Positions 2,485 through 11,323 of a DNA stretch of 64,000 bases are shown here, piece after piece. The notes below the pieces were generated by a model. It was not told the origin of the DNA. It ran no database searches and was given only the letters and a program-made list of their open reading frames with translations. Positions within the stretch are counted from its first letter, which is position 1, and each line of letters opens with the position of its first letter. A program made the position numbers and the translations under genes. The DNA is from a virus: positions 1 to 64,000 of IMG/VR virus record IMGVR_UViG_3300036790_000218; one strand, written 5' to 3'.

Positions 2485-2718
2485 ATGACCCTCCCGGGCC
2501 AGCCTCGGTCGCTGCTGGGCAAGGTCATCGACGCATGCGGCCGGCGGCCGAAGGTGCGCAGGCGCGTCGCCGCCATCGCGAACGCGGTCCGGGAGCACGT
2601 CACGACGGTCGCCGCGTTCGCCGCCTGTGACTACGGGGTGTTCCAGCTGAACCACGCGGCGGCGTGGATCGTCGCGGCCCCGCTGCTGATCGTCGCGGAG
2701 TGGAAGGTGCGGGACTAG
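2485..2718 (+). CDS. Small putative membrane protein
   Basis: This 77-residue protein (ATG 2485; a TTG at 2458 is an alternative start) has a basic N-terminal half and a hydrophobic stretch of about 20 residues near the end (AAAWIVAAPLLIVAEW). It is the first gene of the phage A structural operon and ends two bases before the portal start. A single membrane segment is likely. I do not recognise the family. Confidence 0.5.
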   Translation: MTLPGQPRSLLGKVIDACGRRPKVRRRVAAIANAVREHVTTVAAFAACDYGVFQLNHAAAWIVAAPLLIVAEWKVRD

Positions 2719-2720
2719 CC

Positions 2721-4160
2721 GTGCCGTCGCTGCTGGGGAAGGCGCTCGCGGCCACGGCGCCGGCCCGTCCCCCGGTGCCCATGGGCGAGTCCGGGATCTG
2801 GCAGATCCCGCGCGGCTCCTCGTCAAGAGGCAGCGCCGACGAGGCGTACCTGCGGGCCTACGGGCGGAACGGGACCACGTTCTCCAACGGCGGCCTGCTG
2901 GCCAGCGCGACGGCCGGGCCGGAGTGGAAGCTGTTCCGCAAGCAGAAGCGCGACGGCCGGCAGCGGTACTCGACCTCCGACGTCGGCTCCGACCAGCGCA
3001 CGGAAGTCCTCCAGCACCCGGCGCTGAGCCTGCTGTGCAGCCCCAACCGGTACTGGTCCCGGTTCCGGCTGTTCGAGATCAGCCAGCTGTACCAGGACCT
3101 GACCGGCAAGGCGCACTGGGTGCTGACCAAGGCCGCGGGGATGCCGACCGGGATCTGGCCGGTGCGCCCGGACCGGATGCAGCCGGTCCCCGACCGCGAC
3201 AAGTACCTGCTGGGGTGGCTGTACACCTCACCCGGCGGCGGGGAGCAGGTCGGGCTGGACCCGGACGAGGTGATCTACAACCCGCTCCCGGATCCCCTCG
3301 ACAGCTACGGCGGGACCGGGCCGATTCAGTCGGTACTGACCGAGATCGACGCCGTCGACTACGCCGCCCAGTACAACCGGAACTTCTTCTCCAACTCCGC
3401 GCGCCCGGACGGTGTCCTTTCGGTGGACCACCGGGTCAGCGACGAGGAATGGGACGAGCTGACCGACCGGTGGCGCGAGGCGCACCGGGGCGTGGCCCGG
3501 GCGCACCGGGTCGCGGTGCTCGAAGGCGTGACCTGGGTGCCGACGTCGACCGCGCCGAAGGACATGGATTTCCCGGTGCTCATGAGCACGGGCGGGGACC
3601 GGATCCGCGAGGCCCTCGGCATGCACAAGATCATGACCGGGCTCGTCGACGACGTGAACCGCGCGAATGCGCAGACCGGGGAAGAGATTTTCGCCGCGTG
3701 GAAAGTCGCGCCGCGGCTGCGCCGGTGGAAAGACGTGATCAATTTCCATTACCTGCCGCAGTTCGGCGAAGTGGGAAAGGACGTCGAATTCGACTTCCTC
3801 TACCCGATGCCTGTTAACCGCGAGCAGGACAACCTGGAACTGGCCGCGAAAGCGAATGCGGTGCTGGCGCTGGTGACGGCGGGTTACGACCAGGCCGACG
3901 TCCTGCAGGTGGTCGGCCTGCCGTCGATGAAGGCGGTCCTGACCCTGTCCAGCCAGCCCGCCCTGCCGCCCCGGTGGACCGCGCCGACGGCCGTCCCCGC
4001 CGCTCCTGGTGCCCCCGCTGCGGGCGAGCCCGCGCAGGCCGCCGTCGCCGAGGCGCTGGCCACGCTGCGCGCGTCGGCCGGGTGGGACTCCAAGGCGTGG
4101 GACCGGCTCGAGGAAATGCGGCAGACGGCCGCGTGGAACTCGCTGGCGGGTGCCCGGTGA
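2721..4160 (+). CDS. Phage A portal protein (HK97 type)
   Basis: This 479-residue protein would form the twelve-subunit ring through which DNA enters and leaves the capsid and on which head assembly nucleates. It shows the usual HK97-family course: a helical N-terminus, a central beta-rich wing with GKAHWVLTKAAGMPTGIWPV, then the clip and stem segment around YNRNFFSNSARPDGVLS and the conserved tail containing GLVDDVNRANAQTGEEIFAA. GTG 2721 was chosen because it follows the previous stop directly. The C-terminal 90 residues are Ala/Pro-rich and probably disordered. The ClpP-like protease and capsid genes follow, which supports the call. Confidence 0.9.
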   Translation: MPSLLGKALAATAPARPPVPMGESGIWQIPRGSSSRGSADEAYLRAYGRNGTTFSNGGLLASATAGPEWKLFRKQKRDGRQRYSTSDVGSDQRTEVLQHPALSLLCSPNRYWSRFRLFEISQLYQDLTGKAHWVLTKAAGMPTGIWPVRPDRMQPVPDRDKYLLGWLYTSPGGGEQVGLDPDEVIYNPLPDPLDSYGGTGPIQSVLTEIDAVDYAAQYNRNFFSNSARPDGVLSVDHRVSDEEWDELTDRWREAHRGVARAHRVAVLEGVTWVPTSTAPKDMDFPVLMSTGGDRIREALGMHKIMTGLVDDVNRANAQTGEEIFAAWKVAPRLRRWKDVINFHYLPQFGEVGKDVEFDFLYPMPVNREQDNLELAAKANAVLALVTAGYDQADVLQVVGLPSMKAVLTLSSQPALPPRWTAPTAVPAAPGAPAAGEPAQAAVAEALATLRASAGWDSKAWDRLEEMRQTAAWNSLAGAR

Positions 4161-4294
4161 AAAGCGAGCGGCAGCCCGAGGCCCCGCGCAAGCCGCGCAA
4201 GGGGCGAGATCCGGTACCGCAGGCGCGGGTCACCGTAGCGCGCGCGCGGGCGCTCGGCCGCGTCGTGGTCGTGAGCGGGAGGACCGTGCGATGA
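4157..4294 (+). CDS. Small basic protein between portal and protease
   Basis: This is a 45-residue, Arg/Lys/Pro-rich protein starting at a GTG that overlaps the portal stop (GTGA) and ending inside the ATGA that starts the protease gene. The perfect overlap at both ends suggests real, translationally coupled expression. I see no domain. It could be a nucleic-acid-binding or scaffold-associated peptide. Confidence 0.4.
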   Translation: MKSERQPEAPRKPRKGRDPVPQARVTVARARALGRVVVVSGRTVR

Positions 4295-5877
4295 CAAACC
4301 CGTGCCCGATGAGGTGCCAGATCCGGGCCGAGGCCGGCGTGACCCGCGTTGACGTTTACGACGACATCGGCGAGGGCTGGTTCAGCGAGGGCCTGACCGC
4401 CAAGGCGTTCGCCGCGCAGCTCGCCGGGGTCAAAGGCCCCGTAGATGTACATATCAACTCGGTTGGGGGGGACGTCGGCGAGGGAATTGCCATAGGCAAC
4501 ACCATCCGCGCCTACAAGGGTTTCAAGCGGACCGTCGTTGATGGCATGGCCGCCTCGATCGCGTCGGTGATCGCCCAGGCGGGCGATGAGCGCATCGTGG
4601 AACCGGGCTCAATGACCTTCGTTCACGACGCGTGGGGCGGCTGTATTGGCCCCGCAGCCGACCACCAGAAGACGGCCGCGGACCTGAACAAGCACAGCGA
4701 CAACCTGGCCGAGATCTACGCCGCCCGTGCCGGGGGGACTCAGCAGCACTGGCGCGACGTCATGCTCGCTGAGACCTGGTTCAACGCTGACGAGGCGGTC
4801 GCTGCGGGCCTGGCCGACCGGAAGGGAACGGGGCAGGCGGCCCTCCCTGAGGGCATGGACCTGGCGGCGTTCACGACGCTGCCTGGCCGGATCGCCGCGG
4901 CCTTGCGCGCCCTGCCCGTCGCGGCGCTCCCGCAGCCGCAGGACGCCGCCCGCCACGACCCGATGACGGGCACCCACAGCCACCCGCACCCCGCGTACGG
5001 CTCGCAGGGCGGCGATGCGCTCCATAGCCACGAGCACTCCCACGACGGGGACGCCAGCCACTCCCACGACCACGGCGGCACCGAGGACCACGGGACGCGC
5101 CCGGCAGCCGGCCAGCAGTCGTGCGCGGACATGGGCCACCAGTGCTGCAAGGACGCCGGGACCATGGCCGGGGCGCTGACCGCAGGCCAGGCGCGGGCGA
5201 TCTTCGGTGAGTTCCTTGACAGGCTGCCCGCCGCGGCCGCCGGGCCCGGCTCGCACGGCCACGCCGGGGACTGCTGGGACCCGGACGGCGACGGCGACTG
5301 TGACCTCACCGCCGAGGGCGACACCGACCACGACTACTGGTCGCAGGACGGCACGCAGCTCAAGTCCGTGCCCGGCAAGCCGATGGGCGACACGCTGCGC
5401 GAGGCGGTGCTGGCCGTCCTCGTCGCCGAGGGCCTGCTGCCCGGACCGGACGGTTACCTGCGCCCGGCCAATGCCGACGTGGACAACTCCGACTGGGACG
5501 CGAGCAAGGCGTGGCACAACGGCGCCGCCAGCGACGACCCGGCCGCGTTCTACGCCGGGATCTGCGCCGGGAAGAAGTCCGGCGACAAGGCCACCCAGGC
5601 GGCGTGGGCGCTGCCGTACAAGTACACGCCGTCGAGCCCGCCGAACGCGGCGGGGGTGAAGAACGCGCTGTCCCGGCTGCCGCAGACCGAGGGCCTGACC
5701 AACGCTGACGAGGCCAAGGCAAAGCTGCAGGGCCTGATGAAGAAGATCAACCCGGACTACGAGCCGGAAGACAGCGCGGGCGACGGCCCGCACGACACCG
5801 CCGAGGACGACTTCCCCGGGTTCGACCCGGAGAAGGTCAGGACAGCACTCCAGGCTCTGAAAGGGGCAATCGCATGA
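4291..5877 (+). CDS. Phage A prohead protease, ClpP/S49-like, with His-rich insert
   Basis: This 528-residue protein should process the scaffold part of the capsid protein during maturation. The N-terminal 200 residues have a ClpP/crotonase-type serine protease layout: DVHINSVGGDVGEG (residues 52-65), the nucleophile motif GMAAS with Ser89, and FVHDAWGG with His112. Residues 222-267 are extremely rich in His with Asp and Ser, and a Cys-containing stretch (CADMGHQCCKD) follows, so metal binding is possible. The C-terminal 150 residues form a separate helical domain that may act as a scaffold or be released. The gene overlaps its neighbours by ATGA junctions and lies directly before the major capsid gene. 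Confidence 0.85.
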   Translation: MTNPCPMRCQIRAEAGVTRVDVYDDIGEGWFSEGLTAKAFAAQLAGVKGPVDVHINSVGGDVGEGIAIGNTIRAYKGFKRTVVDGMAASIASVIAQAGDERIVEPGSMTFVHDAWGGCIGPAADHQKTAADLNKHSDNLAEIYAARAGGTQQHWRDVMLAETWFNADEAVAAGLADRKGTGQAALPEGMDLAAFTTLPGRIAAALRALPVAALPQPQDAARHDPMTGTHSHPHPAYGSQGGDALHSHEHSHDGDASHSHDHGGTEDHGTRPAAGQQSCADMGHQCCKDAGTMAGALTAGQARAIFGEFLDRLPAAAAGPGSHGHAGDCWDPDGDGDCDLTAEGDTDHDYWSQDGTQLKSVPGKPMGDTLREAVLAVLVAEGLLPGPDGYLRPANADVDNSDWDASKAWHNGAASDDPAAFYAGICAGKKSGDKATQAAWALPYKYTPSSPPNAAGVKNALSRLPQTEGLTNADEAKAKLQGLMKKINPDYEPEDSAGDGPHDTAEDDFPGFDPEKVRTALQALKGAIA

Positions 5878-7379
5878 AGGGGCAGGTTGAGATCCCCCAG
5901 ACCTCTGAGGGGCTGGAGGAACTGCTGCACGACGAGGGCCGGATGAAGGACGTCTGGAAGAACGGCCAGTTCGCCGAGCTGACGTCCAGTTACATCGCCA
6001 AGGCGATGGCCGACCAGCGCCAGGAGCTGGCCGTCCAGATGCGCGAGCAGATGGAACTCGGCAAGCAGCAGATCCTGCAGGAGTGGGAGGCGCAGGGCAT
6101 CACCCCGCGCAACGGGTTCCGGCCCGGCGGGGCACCGGTTAGCAAGCGGGACGCGCGGCGTAACAAAGCTGTCGCCCGCTCCCGCCTGGCCAGCGCGGAA
6201 ATGCAGGCCGAACTGCAGGGCGCGTTCAACCCGGACGCCATGGGCGCCGCCTTCGACGACAAGCCGTACGCCCAGAGCATGCGGGCCTTCATGCACACCA
6301 TGTGGAAGAAGGGCGCGCTGGCGAAGGAGGCGGGCGACACCGAGGGTGTGGCGCTCGTCGAGGGCTACAAGCAGGAGTTGTTCAACGCCCTGCGGCGCCC
6401 GCAGAACGCCGCCATGTCGGAACGCCTCCCGGCGGAGGGCGGGTTCCTCGTGCCCGAGGTTCTCCGCAGCGAGATCCTCATGCTGGCACTGGAGCAGTCG
6501 GTGGTCCGGCCCCGCGCGCAGGTCATCCCGATGGACTCGCTGCGGGTGCCGCTGCCGATAGTGGACGACACCAGTCACACGTCGAACGTGTACGGCGGCG
6601 TGGCGGCGTACTGGACTGCTGAGGGCGCGGCGCTCGCGGCCACCGCGCCGAAGTGGGGCCGGATTGACCTGGAGGCCCGTAAACTTACCGCCTTCACGAC
6701 AATTCCGAATGAACTCCTCCAGGACTCCGTTACGCCATTGGATGCCTGGTTCAACATCTTCTTCCCGAAAGCCATGGCCTATTTCGAGGACGTGGCCTTT
6801 ATAAGCGGCAGCGGGGTTGGGGAACCCCAGGGCTATCTGAACGCCCCGGCCGCGGTGAAGCTGAACAGCGCGACGCAGAACGTGATCGCCTTCTCCGACA
6901 TCGCGTCCATGTTCTGCCGCATGTGGCCGCCGTCGCTGCGCAATGCGGTGTGGCTGGCCTCGCCGGACGCCTTCGCGCAGATCCTGCAGTTGTCCCTGTC
7001 GTCGAACGTTGCCCCGCCGCTGATGCTGCAGTCCTACCAGGCGATCGGTGCCCCGGCCGGCGGCAACGGCGACGGCGTCAACTACATGCTGATGGGCCGG
7101 CCGCTGATCGTGAGCGAGAAGATCCCGTCGAGCCTGAGCGGCAACACGACCACCTCCGGTGCGCTGTCCTTCGTGGATTTCGACCAGTTCCTCATCGGCG
7201 ACCGCCAGTCCATGCAGATCGCCACCAGCGAGGAATACCTGTTCGCGAACGACCTGGTCGCCTACCGGGTGATCCTCCGCGAAGACGGGCGAATCTGGCA
7301 GCAGTCGGCGCTGACTCCGCAGAACGGGAGCACCCAGACGCTCTCGCCCGTCGTCCTGCTCGACACCCCGCACGCCTGA
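5874..7379 (+). CDS. Phage A major capsid protein 1 (HK97 fold)
   Basis: This 501-residue protein has an N-terminal region of about 180 charged, helical residues (coiled-coil-like around 40-75) that fits a scaffolding delta domain. It is followed by an HK97-type capsid core that begins around MSERLPAEGGFLVP (181-194). Core landmarks include a long P-loop/E-loop segment, LEARKLTAFTTIPNELL and GSGVGEPQGYLNAP. The upstream protease probably removes the delta domain. A second, shorter protein at 8997-10091 has the same core landmarks, so this phage carries two capsid-like paralogues. Confidence 0.88.
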   Translation: MKGQVEIPQTSEGLEELLHDEGRMKDVWKNGQFAELTSSYIAKAMADQRQELAVQMREQMELGKQQILQEWEAQGITPRNGFRPGGAPVSKRDARRNKAVARSRLASAEMQAELQGAFNPDAMGAAFDDKPYAQSMRAFMHTMWKKGALAKEAGDTEGVALVEGYKQELFNALRRPQNAAMSERLPAEGGFLVPEVLRSEILMLALEQSVVRPRAQVIPMDSLRVPLPIVDDTSHTSNVYGGVAAYWTAEGAALAATAPKWGRIDLEARKLTAFTTIPNELLQDSVTPLDAWFNIFFPKAMAYFEDVAFISGSGVGEPQGYLNAPAAVKLNSATQNVIAFSDIASMFCRMWPPSLRNAVWLASPDAFAQILQLSLSSNVAPPLMLQSYQAIGAPAGGNGDGVNYMLMGRPLIVSEKIPSSLSGNTTTSGALSFVDFDQFLIGDRQSMQIATSEEYLFANDLVAYRVILREDGRIWQQSALTPQNGSTQTLSPVVLLDTPHA

Positions 7380-7415
7380 GAAGAGGCGGCCCGCCGCCAG
7401 AAAGAGAGTTCGCAA

Positions 7416-7841
7416 ATGGGCATGCTGCCTGTTGGGCTCGCTGTCGGCTACCCGGTGCCCATCGCGGCCGGGAAGCTCATCAGCCTCAAGGATGCCGCCG
7501 GCATCCTGTTCGTCGTCACCGGCAACGACACTTTCACCCTCAAGTCCGCGGCCACCTACAATGGCTCGCCGACCGCGCTACCCACGATCACCGAGTACTG
7601 GACCAGTACCGCCACGGACGGCTCGGTAGCCCTGACGGCCAACACGCAGGCCGCGGCGAGCACCGTGGTCATCGCGTCGGGCATGGCCCTGTTCTACGTC
7701 GATGCCGCGGACCTGCCAGCGCTGGCCGAGTACGTCGAGGTCACCGTGGCGGCGTCGGGCCTGGTGCAGGCGTACCCGGTTGGCCTCCTGGTGGGCCGCG
7801 ACCCGGCGAACCTGCGCGTCGTCTCCGGTTCGAGTTCGTAA
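7416..7841 (+). CDS. Head-region protein, possible capsid decoration protein
   Basis: This 141-residue protein follows the major capsid gene and has a good ribosome binding site (AGAAAGAGAG) before ATG 7416. It is small, rich in Gly, Ala, Thr and Val, with alternating hydrophobic stretches typical of a beta-rich fold, and has no cysteine or membrane segment. Decoration or cement proteins commonly occupy this position, which is the basis of the suggestion. I recognise no specific family. Confidence 0.5.
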   Translation: MGMLPVGLAVGYPVPIAAGKLISLKDAAGILFVVTGNDTFTLKSAATYNGSPTALPTITEYWTSTATDGSVALTANTQAAASTVVIASGMALFYVDAADLPALAEYVEVTVAASGLVQAYPVGLLVGRDPANLRVVSGSSS

Positions 7842-7853
7842 GGCCCTGGGCTG

Positions 7854-8282
7854 ATGAGCAGCGACCTGAAGATCAGCAAGGCCGCCGGGGCGACCGGTGG
7901 CGCGGGCGAGACCACCGAGCAGTCCACGACGTTCCTGCGCAAGGACGGCGTGTACATCAACCCGTTCTCGGTCCCTGCGCCGCTGCTGGCCGGCACGAGC
8001 ACGGCCGCGTCGGCACCGGTCCTGACGCCGACGTTCGCCAGCGGCACCGCTTCGCAGCTGAGCGACACCACGCGCGACTACATGGTGTACCTCAACGTCA
8101 CCACGTCGGGCACGGCGACGAGCGTCACGATCGGGCCCACCTCGGCTGGCAACACGGTGAGCATCATGGCCAGCGCTGCGGCGACCGCAGGCCAGGTCAT
8201 CGCCTTCCGGCTGCCCGCCGGCTGGTACGTCAAGTGGACCGGCACGACAACCGTTCTCGCGCAGGCCGCGATCGGCTGCTGA
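7854..8282 (+). CDS. Beta-rich head-region protein
   Basis: This 142-residue protein starts with a Gly/Ala/Thr-rich arm of about 30 residues, followed by a beta-rich domain ending in FRLPAGWYVKWTGTTTVLAQ. That ending resembles small virion surface or decoration proteins of actinophages. It lies between the two capsid paralogues. The function is inferred from composition and place only. Confidence 0.45.
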   Translation: MSSDLKISKAAGATGGAGETTEQSTTFLRKDGVYINPFSVPAPLLAGTSTAASAPVLTPTFASGTASQLSDTTRDYMVYLNVTTSGTATSVTIGPTSAGNTVSIMASAAATAGQVIAFRLPAGWYVKWTGTTTVLAQAAIGC

Positions 8283-8285
8283 GGC

Positions 8286-8744
8286 ATGGCGGGGCGGTGG
8301 AGGTGCGCGCAGTGCAGGTGCCTGTACGCCCCGGGGGCGCCCTGCTGCCCTGACTGCCGGTCCGCGGAGCACGAGGAGGAGGACGAGATGCCGAAGATCG
8401 ACAGGTTCGGCGTGGCCACCATCGGCTCCGTCACGACCGGGCACGCCTCGGCGATCCTGCCGGACGGCGGGGCCGTGCCGCCCGCCATTCCCCCGGCTGA
8501 GGTGAAGCCAGCGGCCGGGACGGAGGCGCAGGCCGGGGAGAAGGAGGCCGCGGCCCCGGAGGTCGTGACCGTGGCCGAGCAGAAGGCGGCCGGGGTGCCA
8601 CCGGAGGAGACGGTCACGGTCGCCGCCCAGAAGGCGGGCACCCCGCCTCCGCTGCCGCCCCCGGCGGACCCGGCCGCGCCGCCGGCGAAGGCCGCCGCCA
8701 CTCCTGCGCCCGCGACTCCGCCGAAGAAGGCGGCAGATGGCTAG
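8286..8744 (+). CDS. Zinc-ribbon protein with Ala/Pro-rich tail
   Basis: This 152-residue protein begins with a compact zinc-ribbon, CAQC (residues 8-11) and CCPDC, followed by an acidic stretch and then about 90 residues of Ala, Pro, Val and Glu that are likely disordered. An internal ATG at 8388 preceded by GAGGAGGACGAG could give a shorter product without the ribbon. Proteins with this ribbon followed by a disordered tail recur beside capsid genes in actinophages. The role is unknown. Confidence 0.55.
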   Translation: MAGRWRCAQCRCLYAPGAPCCPDCRSAEHEEEDEMPKIDRFGVATIGSVTTGHASAILPDGGAVPPAIPPAEVKPAAGTEAQAGEKEAAAPEVVTVAEQKAAGVPPEETVTVAAQKAGTPPPLPPPADPAAPPAKAAATPAPATPPKKAADG

Positions 8745-9000
8745 CCCGCAGCCCGCGACGGGTGCCTGGTATGCCCTGGGCGCGATCTTCCGGGACCAGG
8801 AATACGAGTTCGAGCGGTGGCGGCAGGAGGTGCAGTCCGAGGGCGGCCTGGCCTGCCCGCGTGACGGCGAGCCGTTGTCGACCGGGCCCAGCACGGGCGC
8901 CGGGGCGTCGGTGGTCCGGTACTGCCGGTTCTGCGGATGGCAGGCGCCACGTGATGTCATCTCGCCGCGGCACGGGGTCAAGATGGGGCGCGACGGGTGA
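8737..9000 (+). CDS. Small zinc-binding head-region protein
   Basis: This 87-residue protein has one Cys in ACPRDGEPL and two more in YCRFCGW, a spacing that suggests a small zinc-binding or knuckle fold. The N-terminal helix contains FRDQEYEFERWRQE. It overlaps the preceding gene by 8 bases and the second capsid gene by 4 (GTGA). Its position suggests a role with the second capsid protein. The function is unknown. Confidence 0.5.
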   Translation: MASPQPATGAWYALGAIFRDQEYEFERWRQEVQSEGGLACPRDGEPLSTGPSTGAGASVVRYCRFCGWQAPRDVISPRHGVKMGRDG

Positions 9001-10091
9001 GCGAAGCAATGTTGCGGCCGCCGGGCGCGGTCCTGGACCAGTACGACTGGGCGCAGTCGTGGTCCCGGTTCCTGGCCGCCCTGCGGGATCCTCACGACGC
9101 ACTCGGCGTCAGGCCGGTGATCCGCGACGCCGCGCAGGGCATGTCGGAACGCATCCCGGCCGAGGGCGGCTTCCTGGTGCCGTGGGTGCTGACCGAGCAG
9201 GTGCTGCACTACACCGCCGGGGCGATCGTCCGGCCGCGCGCGACCCCGGTCCCGATGACCACCCTGCAGCAGGCGATCCCTTCCCTGTCGGCCTACGACC
9301 AGAGCGACGGCGGCCAGGCCCTGGGCGGCATGAAGTTCTCCGTGGTGGAGGAAGCCGCCGCGATCCCGGCGACCGCGCCGTCCTTCGACCGCCTCCAGCT
9401 TGAGGCCCGCAAGTACGGCGGCTACCTGCAGAACGTCCCGGCCGAGCTTCTCGGCGACGCGAACGGCGCCATGGGTGACCTGCTCGGCCGCATCATCGGC
9501 GAGGGTTACGCCTGGTGGGAAGACGAACTCTGGATAAATGGGACAGGTGTTGGCCAGCCGCAGGGCCTGGTGAACGCGCCCGGCGCGAAGGTGGTGGACC
9601 GGGCGGTGGTCAGCGTGGTCGGCCTGGCGGACGTGGCGGCCATGATGGAGGCCCTGCACCCCGCCGCTGAGCGCGGCAGTGCGTGCTGGCTGCTCAACTC
9701 CCAGGTCTTCGACTACTTCCTGACGCTGTCCCTCGGCGTCGGCGCCTCCCCAAGCGCCACTTACGTGCCGGCGTCGGAGTGGCTGCGCTACGACGAGACG
9801 AACCGGTGCTGGCGGCTCATCGGGCTGCCCTGCTTCCCGCACGACCACAACCCAGGACTCGGCGACACGGGGGATGTCATCCTCGCCGACCTGGGCCAGT
9901 ACCTGATCGGCGACCTCCTGGCCCTGACTGTCGAGCTGAGCGAGAAGGGGTCCGGGTTCGGCAAGGACACGGTCAACATCCGCGTCCGCTCCCGCATCGA
10001 CGGCCGGTTCTGGCCGCAGTCCACGTTCACAACGGCCGCTGGTGCCGTGGTGAGCCCGCTCGTGATCCTCTCGGCGACCGTGGCGACCTGA
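8997..10091 (+). CDS. Phage A second HK97-fold capsid protein
   Basis: This 364-residue protein is a paralogue of the major capsid protein at 5874-7379. It shares MSER(I/L)PAEGGFLVP (here residues 49-62), a central ATAP...LEARK segment, and G-GVG-PQG--NAP. It lacks the 180-residue N-terminal scaffold domain, having only 48 residues before the core. It may be a minor capsid subunit for vertices or for a different shell geometry, a decoration protein derived from the capsid protein, or a replacement acquired by recombination. The frame is intact and the gene is overlapped tightly upstream, so it is likely expressed. Confidence 0.82.
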   Translation: MSEAMLRPPGAVLDQYDWAQSWSRFLAALRDPHDALGVRPVIRDAAQGMSERIPAEGGFLVPWVLTEQVLHYTAGAIVRPRATPVPMTTLQQAIPSLSAYDQSDGGQALGGMKFSVVEEAAAIPATAPSFDRLQLEARKYGGYLQNVPAELLGDANGAMGDLLGRIIGEGYAWWEDELWINGTGVGQPQGLVNAPGAKVVDRAVVSVVGLADVAAMMEALHPAAERGSACWLLNSQVFDYFLTLSLGVGASPSATYVPASEWLRYDETNRCWRLIGLPCFPHDHNPGLGDTGDVILADLGQYLIGDLLALTVELSEKGSGFGKDTVNIRVRSRIDGRFWPQSTFTTAAGAVVSPLVILSATVAT

Positions 10092-10175: not shown

Positions 10176-10796
10176 TTGAAGAAGAAGGCGGCCGCCGTGC
10201 CCGGCGGCGTGATGAAGCCTGCGCGCCCGGCTAAGCCGGCGGCGCCCAAGCGGGTAACCGTGCCCGCGCACAAGGCCGCCTCGTCCAAGCACAAACCCGC
10301 CGCGTCGCCGAAGCACAAGGCGGCAGGGACGGCCAAGCACAACGCGAAGACCGGGCTCGCCCTGCACCCGGACGATGTCCAGTGCTGCGCCGCCCAGGCG
10401 CTCGCCGCCTCGCTGCGGCTGGTACTGGGCACCGCCGTGCACCAAGAGGACATGCTGGCGCTGTACTGGCGGACCGCGAGCCACCCGGACGAGGGTGCAT
10501 CGATCCTGGACACGCTCAAGGCCGCGCGGGAGTACGGGCTCGCGGGCCCGAGGCCCCGTTCTTTGACCTCGCTGACCTGCGGAAACGTGATGCGCGATCC
10601 GCGTAATTGCAGGTCAGCGGCCGGGCCCGGCCTGCCGCGTGTCAAGCATGGCCTTATCCTCCGCCTCGAACTTCCCGCAGGTCCGCACGCCGTCCTCGCT
10701 GACGGCAAGCGCTGGTGGTCGTGGGGCGAGCCGTACGACCCGGCTGACTTCGGGAACCCGGTCATCAGCGAGGCATGGGCGGTGGCCTGGTCATGA
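10176..10796 (+). CDS. Papain-like-fold protein with Lys/Ala/His-rich N-terminus
   Basis: This 206-residue protein starts at TTG 10176, seven bases after GAGGGA. Residues 1-60 are Lys, Ala, Pro and His-rich, like histone H1 tails, and could bind DNA. The rest resembles a small papain or C39-type cysteine peptidase: a Cys-Cys at 70-71 at the start of a long helix (CCAAQALAASLRL), and a later His171 in GPHAVLADG followed by GEPYDP. The gene overlaps the next one, which has the same layout. A virion-carried peptidase or amidase-like activity is inferred. The catalytic assignment is tentative. Confidence 0.5.
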   Translation: MKKKAAAVPGGVMKPARPAKPAAPKRVTVPAHKAASSKHKPAASPKHKAAGTAKHNAKTGLALHPDDVQCCAAQALAASLRLVLGTAVHQEDMLALYWRTASHPDEGASILDTLKAAREYGLAGPRPRSLTSLTCGNVMRDPRNCRSAAGPGLPRVKHGLILRLELPAGPHAVLADGKRWWSWGEPYDPADFGNPVISEAWAVAWS

Positions 10797-11323
10797 CCAT
10801 GCCGACCGTGGCGCCAGCGTTCCCGGAGCCCTACCTCCAGCCTGACCGCACCCGGGACTGCGGCTTCTACGGTGCCGCCTACCTCGCTCGCTGCCTCGGA
10901 TTCCCGGATGTGACTGCTGAGCAGGTCAAGGCATGGCGATCCGAGACCTGCCGCCACGAGGATCACTACGCCAGGGTCGCGCTCGGCGCGCAGATGCGCA
11001 CCTTCTGGGATGAGTGCACGGACGATACGGCGTCCGTGGCCGAGAACCTGCGGCGTGGCAGGTTCTGGATGGGGCCGGGCACCGGAGAGTGGGTCCGTTC
11101 CTGGCTGGCGGACGGCTGGATCGCCCACGCCGAGGTCATGCGCATCTCCGCATTCGGCCACGCCGTGGTGCTCCTGGACGCTAGCGATGAGGGCGTCCTG
11201 CTGATGGATCCGCTCTACGGTCACGTGATCGAGCCGTGGGGCTGGTTTCTCGGCAGTGGTCCCGGCACGCCCGGTGCTCATCACATCGCGGGCTGGTACC
11301 GGCTCGGCGGGGGTGCCCGGTGA
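10793..11323 (+). CDS. Putative C39/papain-like cysteine peptidase
   Basis: This 176-residue protein (ATG 10793 overlaps the previous stop; ATG 10775 is an alternative) has the landmarks of C39-like peptidases. Cys23 begins a long helix (DCGFYGAAYLARCLG), and His123 in FGHAVVLLDA is followed by an Asp-Pro pair (D139) in LLMDPLYG. No export signal is visible, so it may act in the virion, for example to cleave a head protein or to modify the cell wall or host proteins on injection. It lies between the second capsid gene and the connector genes, an unusual place for such an enzyme. Confidence 0.6.
   Translation: MTMPTVAPAFPEPYLQPDRTRDCGFYGAAYLARCLGFPDVTAEQVKAWRSETCRHEDHYARVALGAQMRTFWDECTDDTASVAENLRRGRFWMGPGTGEWVRSWLADGWIAHAEVMRISAFGHAVVLLDASDEGVLLMDPLYGHVIEPWGWFLGSGPGTPGAHHIAGWYRLGGGAR

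Follow-up and report, generated by a model that had tools for sequence, protein, structure and literature searches.

Most HK97-fold phages build both the pentamers and the hexamers of their shells from one protein, and how a single protein changes from one capsomer type to the other is an old question. Shells made from two HK97-fold genes are already known. Phage T4 carries the paralogs gp23 and gp24, of which gp24 is a minor shell protein that sits at the vertices, in the pentamers (PMC3012670); 960 copies of gp23 are accompanied by 55 of gp24 (PMC5694885). In the two-protein shell of phage phi12 and Ccm, the pentamers are filled by Ccm, a capsid-protein homolog encoded by the satellite SaPIbov5 with a delta domain of 87 residues and the ability to alter the shape of the capsid, while the delta-bearing phi12 capsid protein (CP) fills the hexamers (PMC8569155). 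The co-encoded HK97-fold paralogs of the Streptomyces lydicus Family 2B encapsulin also co-assemble, in a variable ratio, and one of them cannot form shells alone (PMC12407261).

Here we analysed the first 64 kb (hereafter the window) of a 71.8-kb virus contig, in which one head operon holds two HK97-fold capsid genes, MCP1 with an N-terminal delta (scaffold) domain and MCP2 without one. As in T4, the second protein is a paralog of the major capsid protein of the same phage. However, T4 has a separate scaffolding core and a propeptide on both proteins, whereas here the delta domain is on MCP1 and MCP2 has no extension; nor is there close sequence kinship, no T4 chain being among the matches of MCP1 or MCP2. 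MCP2 could act in the way gp24 does, yet it does not count as a gp24 ortholog. With phi12 the locus shares a ClpP-type protease and a delta domain, but unlike Ccm, MCP2 is the phage's own gene, lies in the head operon of MCP1 and has no delta domain. Unlike the encapsulin genes, which encode a cellular nanocompartment, the pair is adjoined by terminase, portal and head protease genes and thus belongs to a phage head operon. The nearest annotated isolate, Streptomyces phage Dagobah, has the same portal–protease–MCP order and an MCP 37% identical to MCP1, but this MCP is single and lacks the A-loop insertion described below; actinobacterial prophages, too, differ from the window in having one MCP. 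We found no earlier description of the delta-less type in the open-access literature, and subscription journals may hold one; the type appears to be new.

Two paralogous capsid genes in one head operon

All features given below lie on the plus strand unless stated otherwise. The portal gene (2664–4160; PF04860, 3e-44; phrog_2662, 4e-54) is followed by an open frame (4009–5877) with a ClpP-like head maturation protease (PF00574, 2e-25, residues 135–271; phrog_2976, 1e-62). The true start of the protease is probably near 4290, inside this frame, and its stop overlaps the start of MCP1 (5874–7379, 501 aa). C-terminal to the ClpP domain, the frame encodes a long histidine-rich stretch, HSHPHPAYGSQGGDALHSHEHSHDGDASHSHDHGG. 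Four small genes come next, as initially annotated, and all four are kept in the relatives L003 and L004: 7416–7841 (141 aa), with homologs after the capsid gene also in single-MCP relatives; 7854–8282 (142 aa), kept in several further contigs with the pair; 8286–8744 (152 aa); and 8737–9000 (87 aa), which has zinc-ribbon-like cysteines and homologs elsewhere. The stop of the 87-aa gene overlaps the start of MCP2 (8997–10091, 364 aa) in the sequence GTGA. The large terminase gene (199–1791) and an ORF upstream of it (1730–2092) are encoded on the minus strand, unlike the portal and head genes.

The initial annotation described the two capsid genes as intact paralogs with common landmarks, and this was confirmed. 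BLASTP aligned MCP1 and MCP2 with 33% identity over 380 columns, the whole HK97 core, at an E-value of 3e-46, a similarity far beyond chance. The motifs MSER.PAEGGFLVP, ATAP...LEARK and GVG.PQG..NAP are present in both, and neither frame is interrupted. Both proteins matched PF05065 (MCP1 4e-44, 151 bits; MCP2 2e-21, 77 bits) and TIGR01554 (MCP1 1e-55, 189 bits; MCP2 7e-32, 111 bits), in all cases above the curated cut-offs of 24.2 and 27.5 bits, respectively.

MCP2 had also been described as lacking a delta domain of 180 residues. The domain is indeed absent, but only ∼120 residues are missing; the larger figure includes the N-arm region, which MCP2 partly retains. Residue 10 of MCP2 aligns with residue 124 of MCP1, so that MCP2 'GAVLDQYDWAQS' pairs with MCP1 'GAAFDDKPYAQS' in an alignment running from MCP1 residue 124 on, and the open frame of MCP2 reaches just 14 codons upstream of its GTG start (378 versus 364 codons). 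The delta domain accordingly corresponds to MCP1 residues 1 to ∼122 (5874–6239, boundary approximate), a region whose model contains a long helix at residues 33–73.

The GTG start of MCP2 in the window would fit a protein made in small amounts for a particular site of the shell, such as the surroundings of the portal. Most relatives start MCP2 with ATG, however, and no HK97-fold protein that specifically serves the portal vertex is known to us. Capsid subunits must adapt at that vertex too, as seen in RcGTA (PMC7296036), but we regard a portal-vertex role as very unlikely.

The HK97 fold of MCP2, for which structure prediction had been proposed as a check, was borne out by AlphaFold2. Monomer models calculated with ortholog alignments were of moderate confidence (mean pLDDT 77.6 for MCP2 and 79.1 for MCP1), and Foldseek searches of the PDB matched the MCP2 model to solved capsids, namely Mycofy1 (9lw6, 8e-14), the RcGTA capsid and HK97 (1ohg, 5e-11), and the MCP1 model to the RcGTA capsid (6tsu, 1e-15). 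A sequence search of the PDB with MCP2 matched no chain up to an E-value of 1. In the MCP2 model the spine helix (residues 158–181), the E-loop and the P- and A-domains are all retained. That every shell-forming element is kept, including spine helix and E-loop, argues against the earlier suggestion of a dedicated decoration protein on the capsid surface, and to our knowledge decoration proteins have folds other than HK97. MCP2 does have small head genes as neighbours, and one of them, the 141-aa gene, itself encodes a plausible decoration protein and the better candidate for that function; a decorating role for MCP2 is therefore highly improbable. In single-MCP Streptomyces prophages, homologs of the 141-aa gene directly follow the capsid gene.

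The pair recurs in related phages

The initial annotation had called for a survey of close relatives, and the pair is widespread among them, recurring throughout a group of uncultured phages. Alignment scans of IMG/VR and six-frame HMM searches together yielded 54 loci with both genes; once loci from the same contig had been removed, 42 viral contigs besides the window carried MCP1 followed closely, on the same strand, by an MCP2 without a delta domain. The position of MCP2 varies: it directly follows MCP1 in some relatives, its start overlapping or abutting the MCP1 stop in three of them (L036, L039 and L051), and comes after small genes in others. In every MCP2 examined the likely start is 52–90 residues before the GGFLVP core, indicating that all of them lack the delta domain. 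In several related contigs (L003, L004, L007 and L010) the sequence stops no more than about 450 bases from the end of MCP1, as though assembly tended to fail at this point.

In contrast to these viral contigs, none of the 56 bacterial-assembly loci found with the MCP1 alignment (mostly Streptomyces, with other Actinomycetota) has an MCP2; one of these loci, L140, looks like one frameshifted copy. The MCP2 alignment found no relative among bacterial genome contigs, and none of the 253 phage records matched by MCP1 was matched at two places; the phage Dagobah, whose genome is complete, has its single MCP. MCP2 was also not found in L032, L050, L052, L055 and L170, all with at least 3.5 kb of sequence downstream of MCP1 (∼29 kb were searched in L032). 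Judged solely from the single-MCP relatives, the hosts are probably soil actinobacteria.

Since Ccm, an HK97-fold CP homolog at the pentamers, turns the prolate phi12 capsid isometric (PMC8569155), MCP2 might in a Ccm-like manner set the form or size of the shell, switching particles from one of two sizes to the other or making prolate shells isometric. This is distinctly unlikely, because both genes belong to one head operon and are conserved together, with no separate parasite to serve, and nothing points to two genome sizes.

All MCP2s fall in one clade (SH-aLRT 99–100), and on this sequence evidence MCP2 has a single origin. L046, L053 and L168 carry early-branching MCP2s; a separate duplication for the second copies of L046 and L053 was considered and rejected, both lying with L168 inside the MCP2 clade. 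The MCP1s that have an MCP2 partner likewise form one clade (modest support, 82). Had MCP2 arisen by duplication at the root of this clade, after the split from L032/L050-type phages, no losses would be needed, and this history was not rejected (p-AU 0.28); the best tree places MCP2 deeper, perhaps because of its long branch.

MCP2 is under purifying selection, with dN/dS well below 1 (0.26 for the window versus L003, 0.18 for L003 versus L004, and mostly 0.2–0.3 for close pairs), in agreement with the initial annotation of an intact gene. A decaying or non-structural copy might be suspected from the divergence of MCP2 in the window lineage, which forms a long branch, and from the five relatives that have no MCP2 in at least 3.5 kb downstream. 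Such a copy would, however, hardly be found in 42 further contigs, under this constraint and with residues fixed that are specific to MCP2, and we consider decay scarcely credible.

An A-loop insertion in MCP1 accompanies MCP2

The A-loop surrounds the capsomer axis. In MCP1 this loop carries an insertion (residues 394–401, 7053–7076), PAGGNGDG in the window and PGGGNGDG or variants thereof in others, which among MCP1 relatives occurs only in those with MCP2. It is present in all 35 distinct MCP1 sequences from contigs with MCP2 and in none of the 70 sequences from contigs that lack MCP2 across at least 3.5 kb downstream; among 26 sequences with too little downstream sequence, nine have it, and we predict that MCP2 accompanies these nine as well. 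Since the insertion is confined to one clade of the MCP1 tree, the association represents one event and not 35.

Aligning the phi12 CP with the MCP1 family in hhalign placed Thr323–Pro324 of CP beside Ala393–Pro394 of MCP1, where the insertion begins. The alignment as a whole scores weakly, so the placement depends on a local anchor, the subsequent G.P strand common to both, and on the succession of secondary structure elements. Thr323 of the phi12 CP is an A-loop residue, and its mutation has been proposed to enable CP to pack around the fivefold axis and to outcompete Ccm (PMC8569155). In SU10, hexamers and pentamers differ chiefly in the annular loop (PMC9509320).

MCP2-specific residues

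Comparison of 45 MCP1s, 38 MCP2s and 96 other MCPs located the changes fixed specifically in MCP2 to the E-loop, the spine helix, the A-domain and a late loop. The E-loop of MCP2 (residues 98–131, 9288–9389) has 34 residues versus 32 in MCP1 and in single-copy relatives, and contains a conserved Gln107. In the spine helix, Asp290 and Ala300 of MCP1 are both replaced by Gly, and Trp351 of MCP1 is replaced by His. A Glu-Lys pair at MCP1 residues 415–416, at least 98% conserved in MCP1s and single MCPs, is replaced in MCP2 by Asp283-His284 (9843–9848; Asp in 95% and His in 100% of the 38 MCP2s). The late loop of MCP2 has one additional residue, Gly318.

A possible division of labour between hexamers and pentamers

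The initial annotation had raised the possibility of a distinct vertex protein. The A-loop association, together with the precedents of T4 gp24 and Ccm, favours that part of the proposal, and we put the chance at about even that MCP1, with its delta domain, forms the hexamers and MCP2 dedicated pentamers. According to this model, an ancestral single capsid gene would have been duplicated and the copies would have split the work (subfunctionalisation). MCP1 would have retained the delta domain, and with it the task of driving the assembly of proheads together with portal and protease. It would have turned into a hexamer protein, its extended A-loop encircling the sixfold axis; such lengthening of the axis loop could become possible once an MCP no longer has to make pentamers. 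MCP2 would have lost the delta domain and kept the complete HK97 fold. We infer that MCP2 is present in virions and that, in the order of assembly, it is recruited into the shell scaffolded by MCP1; as homopentamers it would occupy the eleven vertices without a portal and contact neighbouring hexamers through its altered E-loop and P-domain.

Four observations speak against dedicated pentamers. First, gp24 and Ccm each have an extension at the N terminus that is cleaved; since MCP2 has none, the model leaves its entry into the prohead unexplained. Second, the concordance between MCP1 and MCP2 is moderate (identity correlation r 0.55 over 325 pairs; between the window and L031 the MCP1 core is 86% identical and MCP2 51%), which is loose for proteins of one shared lattice. 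By these comparisons, and by the varying place of its gene among relatives, MCP2 seems to have evolved faster or to have been exchanged. Third, the distant contigs L180 and L194, described below, have a delta-less second copy beside a first copy with no clear A-loop extension. Fourth, the A-loop association amounts to one evolutionary event, as noted above.

The main rival is that hexamers, or both types of capsomer, contain MCP1 and MCP2 together, with MCP2 for example tuning shell size or stability. Mixing would suit two proteins that share fold and operon and co-vary only loosely, and the S. lydicus encapsulin paralogs do co-assemble (PMC12407261). Against this, the axis loop of MCP1 has changed in step with the presence of MCP2, which suggests separate capsomers, and A-domain and E-loop residues are fixed in MCP2 alone; mixed capsomers are thus unlikely, although we allow them a modest chance.

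If pentamers are indeed dedicated to MCP2, two genes share a task for which most such viruses use one protein, and single-protein relatives stand beside a natural family in which the roles seem to be split, offering residues for testing: the A-loop insertion, the E-loop changes and the EK-to-DH replacement. The locus also raises the question of whether a scaffold-less shell subunit can be recruited by scaffold-bearing neighbours.

A second delta-less pair

The distant viral contigs L180 and L194 contain another pair, a short-delta MCP directly followed by a delta-less copy; in L194, the MCP has 406 aa and the copy, 15 bases on, 341 aa. The second copies fall outside the MCP2 clade, and both copies carry the N-arm stretch KTAGHM.IGDDAQGGFLVPE, which suggests a separate duplication that led to the same result, apparently the second of its kind. 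By eye, the E-loop of the second copy is two residues longer than that of the first, and its late loop has extra residues where MCP2 has one, while the A-loop of the first copy shows no clear extension over L182 and L193. It is possible, though we would wager slightly against it, that a clade of delta-domain phages evolved a delta-less penton by duplication together with specialisation of the hexamer axis loop, that L180 and L194 arrived independently at something similar, and that a hexamer/pentamer split has thus recurred outside T4-like phages.

Downstream of MCP2 in the window, ORFs 10176–10796 and 10775–11323 contain Cys/His motifs reminiscent of papain-fold or C39-like peptidases. Neither matched an NCBIfam model, nor did ORF 10176–10796 match Pfam; homologs of the latter ORF follow MCP2 in many relatives.
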